DNA of 64,000 nt from Dioszegia crocea (taxonomy: Eukaryota > Basidiomycota > Tremellomycetes > Tremellales > Bulleribasidiaceae), in the NCBI GenBank assembly GCA_001600615.1, contig BCKK01000001.1, forward strand, positions 425,641 to 489,640, read 5' to 3'. The position numbers were made by a program, and so were the translations under genes. Of the stretch, positions 42,677-48,132 are shown in pieces. A model generated the notes under the pieces. The model saw nothing but the letters and a program-made list of their open reading frames with translations, was not told the DNA's origin and did no database searches. The first letter of the stretch is position 1. Every line of letters begins with the position of its first letter.

Positions 42677-43783
42677 ATGTCTGAGTGAGTTTAGCCCCTC
42701 GCTGGAATTGGAATGGGAGGCGAGGAATGGGGTGCTGGGATCGGGGTGGCGGTCTCTATGAAGGAGGGGACGTGCTGCAAATTAGGTCAAGAGGTGCAGG
42801 GAGAAGGGCAGACGCGTAGGGGAAGAATTAGATCCAGGTGGCGGTGACAATACGCCAGAATCCCGCTTACAAATCCAGCGCCAAAGCCCCCGAGGGTAAT
42901 GACCTCGAACTCGCCGGAGAGACCATCGAGTCCAACTGGGACAACATTGTCGACAAGTGAGTAGGCGCGACTGAAAGCCATGACTCAAGCTGACGACCAG
43001 CTTCGACAACATGGAGTTGAAGGGTGACCTTCTCCGTGGTGTTTACGCCTACGGTTTCGAGCGTCCCTCTGCCATTCAGCAGCGTGCCATTATGCCCATC
43101 ATCACTGGCCGTGACTGTATTGCCCAGGCTCAGTCCGGTACCGGCAAGACTGCCACCTTCTCTATTTCCATCCTCCAGCGCGTAAGTTTGATGTCTGGCG
43201 TTGGGGGTCATGGCTGACGATCAGATTGACACCACCGTCAAGAAGACCCAGGCTTTGATCCTCGCCCCTACCCGAGAGCTCGCCCAGCAGATTCAGAAGG
43301 TCGTTGTCGCCCTCGGTGACTACCTGAACGTCGACTGCCACGCCTGTGTCGGCGGTACCGCCGTCCGTGAGGACATGGCCAAGCTGAACGACGGCCCTCA
43401 CGTCGTTGTCGGAACCCCCGGCCGAGTGTTTGACATGATCAACCGTGGCGCGCTCAAGACGGACGGCGTCAAGATGTTCTGTCTTGACGAGGCCGACGAG
43501 ATGCTGTCGACCGGGTTCAAGGACTCGATTTACGACATCTTCCAGCTTCTCCCTGCCGACACCCAGGTCGTGCTTCTCTCCGCCACCATGCCCGTCGAGG
43601 TTCTCGAGGTCACCAAGAAGTTCATGCGTGACCCCATCAGGATCTTGGTCAAGCGTGACGAGCTCACCCTTGAGGGTATCAGGCAGTTCTGTAAGCCGAT
43701 TTTGCTGTATACGTGTTCTGTGCTGATTCCCAGACATTGCTGTTGAGAAGGAGGACTGGAAGCTCGACACCCTGTGCGATCTC

Positions 43784-43830
<47 letters not shown>

Positions 43831-43967
43831 CAGGAAGGTCGACTGGCTCACCTCCAAGCTCCACGAGCGCGAGTTCACCGTCTCGGCCATGCACGGTGAC
43901 ATGGACCAGACTCAGCGTGAGGTCATCATGAAGGAGTTCCGATCGGGCTCTTCCCGTGTCTTGATCG

Positions 43968-44007
<40 letters not shown>

Positions 44008-44296
44008 GTCTTTGGTCATCAACGTAAGTCTACCGTCATAACCTCAATGCCCCATGCTGACTTGCCAGTACGACTTGCCCGCCTCCAAGGAGAACTACAT
44101 CCACCGAATCGGTCGTGGAGGACGATTCGGCAGAAAGGGTGTCGCAATCAACTTTGTCAACGCCGAGGACGTCAAGATGCTCCGAGAGATTGAACAGTTC
44201 TAGTGAGTAGGACCAAGCTTAGTACAATGCCTATGCTAATGTATCAGCAACACACACGTCGACGAGATGCCCCTCAACGTCGCCGACCTCATCTAA
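42677..44296 (+). CDS. TIF1: Translation initiation factor eIF4A (DEAD-box RNA helicase)
   Basis: ATP-dependent RNA helicase of the eIF4F cap-binding complex. Exons 42677-42684, 42879-42956, 43001-43181, 43225-43690, 43734-44023, 44069-44202 and 44248-44296; 401 aa, canonical length. All helicase motifs intact: Q motif ([12 protein letters not shown]), I AQSGTGKT, Ia [10 protein letters not shown], Ib [53 protein letters not shown], and the terminal [11 protein letters not shown]. The first exon is 8 nt (ATGTCTGA) before a 194-nt intron, chosen because GA joins in phase to C-GCC-AAA. This gene is the parent-type copy of the two degenerate genes at 45.7-48.1 kb. Confidence 0.97.
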
Positions 44297-44720: not shown

Positions 44721-45436
44721 TCATACCAACCTGCCCGAAGAAGTACCCTCTGCCGCCGTAGTACTCGTCGCTGTTCCCCATCCCCACCTACTACCAGAAC
44801 TCGGTACATCAGCCGCAAGCGCCTGATCCCTCTTCACAGCCTGATCCACCGCCATCGCCTCCAAAGTCCTAGATGGTGCCGGTTGCCCTTGCCCTTGCGC
44901 TGCCACCTGGTCCGAAGCATAATCGACATGTTGACCAGGTACAGACCCGTCGCCTTGTCTGGATTTCCGAGCGGCCTTCAGACGAGATAATTCCTCGTGG
45001 AGACCTGCGGCTGTTTTTGGGGGTTTCTGAATTATCAGCCCAGCCTCAACGGGGCATGTAAGGGAGGAAAAGACGTACGTTCGAGCCTTCAAGTGGTGGG
45101 AGGAGATAATCTTTGTACTGATACATTAGTACGCCGCAGCAGAGGGTAGGGGAATAGATCATACGGGCTGAACATAAGTATCAAACCTGTCGCAAGGTCA
45201 GCTTTCGGTCTCGTCACATCAAAGCATCAAGTTGAGAGAGAGGATAGCTACACGTACCAGACTGGATCTCCGAATTTGTACATTGCAAAAATTGGGAAGA
45301 AGAGGTAGAAGCCGAATCGGAACACTTCCACTGGAGGAGGCTTCAGCTTTGGTACACGACATTGTTGCGCCCCTAGTCGATTTCCAGGCACCTCTGGGAA
45401 TTGAAGGAAGCGACACTTACTGTTTGGGCCTGCCAT
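44721..45436 (-). CDS. PET100: Cytochrome c oxidase assembly factor Pet100-like
   Basis: Mitochondrial inner-membrane assembly factor for complex IV. Exons 45421-45436, 45252-45330, 45165-45186, 45079-45117 and 44721-45026; 153 aa. The N-terminal pattern MAGPNMEVFRFGFYLFFPIF, then AMYKFGDPVWY and YVQPYKDYLLPP, is the Pet100 signature: short N-terminus, one TM helix, FG(D/N)P.WY. The C-terminal extension (about 100 residues: EELSRLKAARKSRQ, then Ala/Gln/Ser-rich, ending TSSGRLV) is longer than in animals and hydrophilic. Introns were set by phase; the exon 2 donor (GTAGCT) is the least certain. Confidence 0.75.
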
Positions 45437-45687
45437 CGTTGTTATTTGACCGCTGTGCTTGACTAGAGTTGGATATGAGCTTGACAGGACTTGACTAGTG
45501 CCTGTGCAGCCAACTGGCAGCGATCGGCCGCCAAGTTCCAACTTCAGGTCCAGGTTGAATACTGACGTAATGCAGATTCGCCACCCACCCAAGCAGCGTG
45601 CCGCTTGCACTGTGCAGCGTGCAGCGGAGCAGCTGAATCTCTCTTCTCTGCGCCCTCGAGGATCTACATATACCTCCCAGTCATAAC

Positions 45688-46354
45688 ATGAACCACTTCA
45701 CAGAAACACCGCCCTCAGGCATCGCGCAAGATGCTGAAGATCACATATTGTCATATCCGAGCGGACAAGATACGATAGTGCAAGAGCGGACGGCCAATGG
45801 TGGACGAGCGGTATTTGTCAGTATGGGTGTATATCTTAAGAGCGTAAGTTGGCAGCTGTCCGACATGATCTCAATGGAAACCCTGCCAATGGACCCTCTC
45901 CAAGGTGTTGAGCAACAACACGCTGACAGGCTAGATTGACCTCTCGAGCCAGAATACCCAAATCCTCATCCTCAGTCCAAGCAGAGGGATGGCGGACCAG
46001 ATATACAAACAAGCCAACACCCTCGCTGCCGAGTTATCCCTCGACGGGATCCGACGTGTGCTCTGTACAAACGATACCATGTCTGCCCGACAACAGGGAG
46101 AAGAAATCCGGGCACAAGTGCCGCATTTGGTCATTGGGACACCTGGGCGAGTATTGGATATGATACACCGACGCGCGCTGGATCTGGGTGGGTTGAAGGT
46201 GTTGTATATGGATGAAATGGAGGTGTTGCTAGAAATGGGATTTGGGGAGATGCTGGCGGAAATTAATCAGCTTGTGAAGGGGAAAAAGGGGTGTTCGGTG
46301 GTTATGAGTTGTGTGGATCCTGGGGCTATGATGGGGTCTGTTAGACCCGGATGA
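45688..46354 (+). pseudogene. eIF4A-derived truncated helicase-like gene (paralogue 1)
   Basis: Exons 45688-45843 and 45935-46354; 191 aa if read to the first stop. Clear derivative of eIF4A domain 1: ILSYPSGQDTIVQ aligns to the GRDCIAQ region, the Walker A is ERTANGGRA (no GKT), then IDLSSQNTQILILSPSRGMADQI, HLVIGTPGRVLDMIHRRALDLGG and LYMDEMEVLLEMGF (DEME for DEAD). The intron between LKS and ID is at the same position and phase as the eIF4A LQR|ID intron. After SCVDPGAMMGS a stop ends the frame, yet eIF4A-like sequence continues in another frame (MSREWCDVRLEDQVRENQ, about 46347-46420). RecA domain 2 is absent. Either a pseudogene or an expressed domain-1 fragment. Confidence 0.7.
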
Positions 46355-46749
46355 GTCGGGAGTGGTGTGATGTAAGACTCGAGGATCAGGTGCGGGAGAA
46401 TCAGACGTTGAGCTTAATTCAGGGTAGGTCGTTTTCTGATATACCTTTGGATCCTTCACAATCATTCGCTGAAACTCTAGGCGGCGACCTTGGTTACCGT
46501 ATGCTCATTTGCCGACTCCCTGTCTGATCGGGGTTGGCTCAACATCGAGAGAATGCCTGGGACGAGGGGCGGAAGGAAGCGGTTATGGCACGGACCCCTG
46601 AATCTGTGCGTGGGCCCACACACACAACACACACAACACCCAAAGGAAACCCCCTCGGTACCGCAACACGCACTCGAGTCGACACTGATTGATCGTTGAT
46701 TGTCGCCATACCATGTCCAGTCCATCCTTAATCACTCTCCATCGATACG
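46355..46749. other. Remnant and intergenic DNA between the two eIF4A derivatives
   Basis: 395 bp. The first 70 bp carry frameshifted eIF4A homology from the upstream gene. The region near 46619-46645 is a CA-rich microsatellite-like tract. The last 100 bp are the promoter/leader of the next gene. Confidence 0.5.
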
Positions 46750-48132
46750 ATGATCAAAAAGGACATCACACGAGGAATGCAGGCGACGGGTATCCGGCCA
46801 TTATCGCACGAGCAGAAAAGGATCATAGTGCCCATCATGGAAGGACGGGACTGTACCGCCCAGACCCGACCGGGCATCAGTGAGATCACTGCAGTCTTGA
46901 TTGCTGTTCTCCAAACTGTAAGCCTAAGTTGTGCCATCAGCCAGTTATTTCATCAGCTTACAAACCAGATCGACGCATCAGCACAAGCCACCCAAATCCT
47001 CATCGTCACTCCTACTCGAGAATCAGCTCAAAAGATATCTAAAATCGCCATTGGGCTCGGAAGATACAAGGGCATCATCTGTAATTTCTGCGCTAGCCCC
47101 AATCCCTTACTTCACGATGCAGATCGACTCCGGAACGGCCCACAAGTGGTAGTCGGTACCCATGATCGCGTGCTCGACATGATTCACCAAGGCGCACTAG
47201 ACACCGGCCGGATCAGCGTCTTTTGCCTCGTTGAGGCCGAGACGATACTGGTGCGGAACAGGATGTCGGTCGTTGAGCTGCTTCTAACCTTACGGTCCGA
47301 CTGCCAATTTGTCATGCTGGCTGAAAGACTCTCGGAGGAGGTGGTGGATGCGACAAAGTGGTATATGAGGAAACCAGCTAGGATTGAGTTGGAGCGGGCC
47401 GAATCTCAGATATCGGACATTACGCAGTACTGTGAGTCTCCGCTCTCTGATTCTTATCAAGGCATCAAGCTGATGACTTCAGATATCACTGGCGGGAGCA
47501 AGTCATGGAGACTTGACGCTCTGCTCGGTCTTTGGGAGAAGGAAACCATCGCTCACGCCATTGTCTACTGCGCAACTTGGAGTCAACTCGAGCAGCTCGC
47601 CAAACAACTCAAGAGAGCCAATATTAGGATCTTGGTCGTACGGAGTGAGAAGGAGTATGAAGATCAGCGTCTGCGCATCACGGAATTTAGATATGGGGCG
47701 CGCGGTCTAATTCTCTCAACCCATCTCCTCGCCCCAGCACTCAACGAGCTGCAGATGGCTCTAGTCATAAATGTGACTTATTCATCTCAGCCTGGAACCG
47801 TCTCACGATGAGCTAAGCTGATGTCTATCAGTACGATATGCCCAAATCTATCGATCACTACGTCTCGCAGGTGGATGATGGCGGGCGATGTGGTACGAAG
47901 CGAGTCGCAATCACCTTTGTCCGGACTCAAGATTTCGATCTCCTTCGGGATGTTGAACATTTCTGGTGGGTTATTCCCCACTTACAAATAAGCAGAGCTC
48001 AGCTGATCTTGCCTTAGCGAAGTAGAGATTGACGAGCTACCGTCGAATTACAGGCCGAGTAAGATCAAGCTTAAGAAGAATGGGAAGATTAGTCTGGTAG
48101 AGTGGCGAAAATCGAGGCATGACGAATTTTGA
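46750..48132 (+). CDS. eIF4A-derived full-length pseudo-helicase (paralogue 2)
   Basis: Exons 46750-46917, 46969-47431, 47483-47772, 47832-47965 and 48018-48132; 389 aa. Collinear with eIF4A across both RecA domains. All four introns sit at the eIF4A positions and phases, and exons 3 and 4 have the same lengths as eIF4A exons 5 and 6 (290 and 134 nt). Catalytic motifs are lost: I is TRPGISEI instead of AQSGTGKT, Ib THDR, II VEAE instead of DEAD, III AER instead of SAT, V APALN instead of ARGID, VI VSQVDDGGRCG instead of [10 protein letters not shown]. The frame is nonetheless uninterrupted and the splice sites work. A Lys-rich C-terminal extension (KIKLKKNGKISLVEWRK) replaces the DLI terminus. 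Probably a non-catalytic RNA- or eIF4G-binding protein, or a decaying gene. Confidence 0.82.

Follow-up and report, generated by a model that had tools for sequence, protein, structure and literature searches.

Is a duplicated translation factor that has lost its catalytic motifs a decaying pseudogene, or a protein kept by selection for something other than catalysis? The question is raised by a 64,000-nucleotide stretch of the Dioszegia crocea genome (17 contigs, 20.57 Mb), hereafter the window, in which an eIF4A gene of conserved, parental type (42677..44296, + strand; seven exons, 401 amino acids) is followed, some 2.4 kb further on and in the same orientation, by a diverged eIF4A-derived gene at 46750..48132 (+), here called copy 3. 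A second tandem copy, copy 2, lies between them at 45688..~46600 (+). The original prediction, made from the sequence, had suggested that copy 3 encodes an eIF4A-derived protein without catalytic function whose frame is maintained by selection, and the neutral simulations and randomized intron bodies reported below support this suggestion. We consider it likely that copy 3 is a selected non-catalytic protein.

Descent from eIF4A

Copy 3 was modelled as five coding exons (46750-46917, 46969-47431, 47483-47772, 47832-47965 and 48018-48132), which splice to 1170 nucleotides encoding 389 amino acids and a stop codon and are collinear with eIF4A exons 3–7. Both a DEAD domain (52.9 bits) and a Helicase_C domain (46.8 bits) scored above the Pfam cut-off. 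The four introns, at 46918..46968 (51 nucleotides, phase 0), 47432..47482 (51 nucleotides, phase 1), 47773..47831 (59 nucleotides, phase 0) and 47966..48017 (52 nucleotides, phase 2), all on the + strand, match eIF4A introns in position and phase in four of four cases. Two exons, of 290 and 134 nucleotides, are identical in length in the two genes and a further pair is one codon apart (463 vs 466 nucleotides). Across 367 aligned codons no frameshift and a single in-frame 3-nucleotide deletion were found, and 136–137 residues (37 %) were identical. The collinearity, intron positions and phases, and exon lengths first proposed for this gene were thus reproduced by the splice model, as was the new Lys-rich C-terminus, a Lys/Arg-rich extension of about 22 codons past the end of eIF4A (48064..48129, +). 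The Pfam scores place the resemblance far above chance, and copy 3 shares common descent with eIF4A. A processed pseudogene (retrocopy) was rejected as an origin, as four introns are present.

The first two introns of copy 3 contain no in-frame stops, and their retention would leave the frame open to 47811 (353 amino acids). The matching eIF4A introns are 43 nucleotides each, against 51 each in copy 3. The open frame through these two introns is probably due to chance.

To place copy 3 among its relatives, identities were compared. Copy 3 was identical to the window eIF4A at 137/367 positions, to FAL1 at 120/367 and to the relatives P0001–P0004 at 118–127 of 367–368; for reference, human eIF4A1 and the window eIF4A are identical at 299/387. 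When the genome itself was searched with the main exon of copy 3, six matches emerged: copy 3, eIF4A, copy 2, a FAL1-like gene and two helicase loci that are more distant. The FAL1/eIF4AIII-like gene (L015, own genome C5:1273500-1277000) is identical to the window eIF4A at 260/371 positions, retains intact DEAD-box motifs and has several introns at positions unlike those of eIF4A, as pieced together by eye. With the lower identity and these differing intron positions, descent of copy 3 from FAL1/eIF4AIII is unlikely.

Relatives were sought in a collection of 5.77 billion proteins, mainly mechanical gene calls. The eIF4A exon equivalent to the main exon of copy 3 gave 5041 matches, and 7 clusters among the 120 listed were 92–97 % identical. 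All seven depart from the eIF4A frame at one and the same exon 4/5 junction. Of 12 other clusters examined, 8 continue across this junction and 4 diverge slightly further on. Copy 3 shares this intron with eIF4A, which points to a duplication that postdates the intron's arrival. Exon 4 of copy 3 is no closer to the window eIF4A (63/155 identical positions) than to other fungal-type eIF4As (up to 65/155), which argues against a very recent origin. At 34 columns that split the eight closest eIF4As from 11 others, copy 3 had the first type at six and the second at three, with 14 columns uncovered. The tree was given little weight owing to its long branches (3.8 changes per column for copy 3 and 4.63 for copy 2) and weak support (40/33).

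Catalytic motifs and predicted fold

The motif replacements listed in the original prediction were all recovered in the alignment. Walker A (motif I; 46864..46887, +) now reads TRPGISEI, with the Lys replaced by Glu and the following Thr by Ile; DEAD (motif II; 47230..47241, +) reads VEAE, its first Asp being replaced by Val; SAT (motif III; 47320..47328, +) reads AER; ARGID (motif V; 47731..47745, +) reads APALN, with Asp replaced by Asn; and the HRIGRxGR region (motif VI; 47862..47894, +) reads VSQVDDGGRCG, with R362 replaced by Asp. The claim that nearly all catalytic motifs have been lost is fair for the ATPase motifs, but motif Ia (PTRE), the motif Ib Arg, the DEAD Glu, the motif V Thr and the last motif VI Arg (R365) remain. 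Among the residues that mark an active enzyme (the Walker A Lys, the DEAD Asp, the motif V Asp and the motif VI arginines), R365 alone is kept. As motif Ia survives along with the Arg of motif Ib, domain 1 may still be able to make some contact with RNA.

A structural model built with homologues, covering copy 3 without its last two exons, matches the eIF4A fold. Copy 3 combines two features of a pseudohelicase, a retained helicase relationship and fold and the loss of catalytic residues.

Selection on copy 3

Pairwise comparison of copy 3 with eIF4A gave a nonsynonymous divergence (dN) of 0.56–0.58 and a synonymous divergence (dS) of 1.7, 1.9 or 6.4 depending on the method, the latter being saturated. 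Because of this saturation, and because comparison with a constrained parent biases pairwise estimates downwards, simulations were used in place of dN/dS. The codons of eIF4A were point-mutated neutrally until codon positions 1 and 2 were as diverged as observed, in 1000 runs at each of kappa 1, 2 and 4; the 37 % identity falls within the simulated range by construction and is uninformative on selection.

Copy 3 contains no stops, whereas the neutral means were 9.1, 8.6 and 7.9 (kappa 1, 2 and 4) and none of the 3000 runs was stop-free. GT and AG are retained in all four introns. The changed residues had a mean BLOSUM62 score of −0.10, more conservative than every neutral run (best −0.35), and the excess of first-position over second-position changes (163 vs 118) was likewise seen in none of the 3000 runs. 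Column sets were then defined from eight relatives (the window eIF4A, FAL1, human eIF4A1 and P0001–P0005). Of the 121 core columns that are hydrophobic in all eight, 107 (88 %) are still hydrophobic in copy 3, compared with a neutral mean of 67 % and a maximum of 82 % in 1000 runs, and domains 1 and 2 taken separately each exceeded all 1000 runs.

The intron bodies gave a different picture. Copy 3 and eIF4A introns share 26, 28, 26 and 26 identical positions, compared with 25.0, 26.4, 28.7 and 27.8 in shuffles. A branch-like site matching the loose motif YTNAY starts 12–15 nucleotides before the 3′ end in all four copy 3 introns. Taken together, the neutral simulations and the drifted intron bodies show that the exons cannot have drifted neutrally throughout, and a pseudogene evolving neutrally for the whole life of copy 3 was rejected on the stops, the core, both domains considered separately and the intron bodies. 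For the greater part of their existence, the exons of copy 3 were subject to selection at the protein level.

No comparable retention was seen at invariant polar, Gly and Pro columns, of which copy 3 keeps 34/87 (39 %) vs 47/150 (31 %) at variable non-core columns (p=0.26; neutral mean 36 %), whereas the single control P0054, with intact motifs and a similar identity to eIF4A (130/368), keeps 55/87 vs 31/149 (p ~1e-10). What selection preserved in copy 3 was the fold, with no measurable constraint on catalysis, and this is the signature of a pseudoenzyme.

Copy 2 and the neighbouring gene

The third eIF4A-like gene of this locus, copy 2, was absent from the original prediction. It comprises equivalents of exons 3 and 4 and is broken in exon 4, its right end being approximate. 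The frame is open from 45688 across an intron at 45844-45934 to a stop at 46352-46354, beyond which the end of exon 4 is shifted and a remnant of exon 5 follows. No stops occur in the first 174 aligned codons of copy 2, which was seen in 1.4 % of 1000 neutral runs, and invariant polar columns are preferentially kept (22/45 vs 15/69, p=0.004) though the Walker A Lys is lost. Copy 2 was under constraint for a long time in the past, and it may have become a pseudogene recently or may encode a truncated protein consisting of domain 1.

At 79 columns changed in both copies, copies 2 and 3 have 17 non-eIF4A residues in common, vs 9.8 by permutation (reached in 29 of 5000), which is moderate evidence for descent of the two from one diverged ancestor. 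Overall the two are identical at 49/173 positions, no closer than either is to eIF4A. A PET100-like gene (45248-45610, − strand; Pfam Pet100, 32.0 bits over frame residues 94–119) lies between eIF4A and copy 2.

Interpretation and rival explanations

On balance, we lean towards copy 3 being a protein-coding, eIF4A-derived pseudohelicase. Under this reading eIF4A would have been duplicated in tandem, the copy would have lost its ATPase motifs, and selection would then have kept it as a protein of two RecA domains without an ATP cycle. The gene is probably still alive, and we infer that copy 3 is transcribed and translated today and acts by static binding.

Several observations weigh against this reading. 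The description of copy 3 as full-length did not hold, as its ATG aligns with Met33 of eIF4A and residues 1–32, including the Q-motif aromatic, are absent; an in-frame TAA (46729-46731) starts 21 nucleotides 5′ of the ATG, and no counterpart of eIF4A exons 1–2 was found upstream by tblastn, leaving a cut N-terminus. The predicted fold depends on homologues, as single-sequence AlphaFold2 failed (predicted local distance difference test score 33.5). GC content at third codon positions is 0.585 in copy 3, against 0.789 in eIF4A and 0.669 in the FAL1 exon, a drop that suggests low expression at best. Orthologues were not found: no matches to copy 3's main exon emerged from 123 candidates among the 5.77 billion proteins, in a search that needs shared words and that a fast-evolving exon may escape, yet relatives with the shared exon 4/5 intron are present in the collection. 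The whole copy 3 protein (queried with one extra residue) gave 159 matches at E <= 0.001, the 120 listed being at best 35 % identical and carrying DEAD-box domains. The polar-column comparison has one intact-motif control, and the adjoining sister copy is broken.

A rival reading is that copy 3, after a history spent mostly under selection, ceased to function only lately and carries no stop or frameshift as yet. The long-constrained and now broken copy 2, the low third-position GC, the missing exons 1–2 and the failure of the protein search to find an orthologue speak for such a recently dead pseudogene. Frequent stops, named beforehand as a sign of decay, are not seen, and any loss of selection could only be recent: when copy 3 was evolved neutrally by 0.01, 0.02, 0.05 and 0.1 substitutions per site, 66, 42, 16 and 2 % of 300 runs remained stop-free. 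Recent death is therefore possible, since some runs are still free of stops at neutral divergences as high as about 0.05 substitutions per site, but the time span available for it is short, and the lack of frameshifts, the one 3-nucleotide in-frame deletion in 367 codons and the four of four GT..AG introns argue against it. We regard it as a real though lesser possibility. An active enzyme of diverged sequence is far less credible. The residues that persist in DEAD (Glu), motif V (Thr) and motif VI (the last Arg), together with motif Ia, would be in its favour, but the replacements in Walker A, DEAD, motif V and at R362 oppose it, and in the excerpted text of one study R362K alone abolishes the helicase activity of eIF4A1 (PMC7470955). 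It was considered extremely improbable.

Competition with eIF4A for eIF4G, in a dominant-negative or regulatory role, was also weighed. Five residues of human eIF4A1 are modelled at the eIF4G interface, R45, D265, E268, D296 and T298 (PMC7470955). Copy 3 keeps R45 and E268, and has Gly for D265, Asn for D296 and Arg for T298, so that the eIF4G binding originally proposed is weakened, two contacts standing and three not. Position 296 is Asn in FAL1 and, as the window eIF4A itself has Glu there, says little. Within the same excerpts, the quadruple mutant D265R, E268K, D296A, T298K binds eIF4G poorly, D296K alone lowers binding, and inactive eIF4A mutants can be dominant-negative (PMC7470955). 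Excerpts of a second study report strong inhibition of all reporters when inactive eIF4A1 (DQAD mutant) was present in translation reactions (PMC9976904). The two retained contacts and these inhibitory effects would suit a competitor, but three contacts differ, and domain 2, which bears four of the five, is less conserved relative to eIF4A (54/158, vs 82/204 for domain 1). A normal eIF4G complex is less likely on these alignments, and a competitor for eIF4G is improbable.

For the pseudohelicase reading, we tentatively propose, by analogy, that copy 3 may act as a non-cycling binding partner of eIF4A or of the messenger ribonucleoprotein (mRNP) network. It would make weak contacts with RNA in domain 1, where motif Ia and the Arg of motif Ib survive, or bind proteins of the eIF4A/mRNP network, or both. 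In this way it would modulate active eIF4A, or a helicase related to it, without taking the place of eIF4A in a normal eIF4G complex. A further point against the reading is that an effect of copy 3 could go in either direction: inactive eIF4A1 clamped on an overhang supports unwinding by active eIF4A1, as excerpted (PMC9976904), and inactive eIF4A1 also inhibits translation. More speculatively, and with little confidence, a lineage of fungi may have evolved tandem eIF4A-derived pseudohelicases, copy 3 alive and copy 2 lately broken, which would tune the active eIF4A or its mRNPs as subunits that do not themselves cycle. If true, a translation factor would have been turned into its own regulator.

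Comparison with known systems

In agreement with the original prediction, no fungal pseudo-eIF4A, including an eIF4A-derived tandem case, was found in the open-licence literature. Few pseudohelicases are named as such, the term being present in 3 of 5.39 million papers searched. Pseudohelicases are nevertheless a known kind, to judge from the accessible parts of the report on the small-subunit (SSU) processome protein Utp25/Def (PMC9539457), and it is the eIF4A-derived tandem case that was not met with in the open-licence papers searched. Like copy 3, Utp25 has a DEAD-box fold with vestigial motifs, including motif Ia, and has lost catalysis. Unlike copy 3, a tandem eIF4A paralogue for which no orthologue was found in the protein search, Utp25 is essential, conserved and nucleolar and has a long disordered N-terminus (PMC9539457). 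PriA of Deinococcus radiodurans is a helicase homologue titled a pseudohelicase, as copy 3 is read here; it differs, in the portion of its report available, in being a bacterial replication-restart protein of another helicase family with no active paralogue beside it (PMC4504706). The FAL1/eIF4AIII-like gene belongs to the same DEAD-box subfamily as copy 3 and differs in its intact motifs and other intron positions, and copy 3 resembles it less than it resembles eIF4A.

The closest comparison is with the neighbouring eIF4A. The two genes agree in the position and phase of four introns, in the lengths of two exons, at 37 % of aligned residues and in predicted fold, and copy 3 differs from eIF4A in the lost ATPase residues, the missing N-terminal 32 residues and the C-terminal extension, three of the five modelled contacts also differing from human eIF4A1. 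eIF4A is highly conserved. A duplicate selected for the fold but not for catalysis would show what a protein with the shape of eIF4A can do without ATP, and would provide a case in which scaffold and motor roles have come apart naturally.
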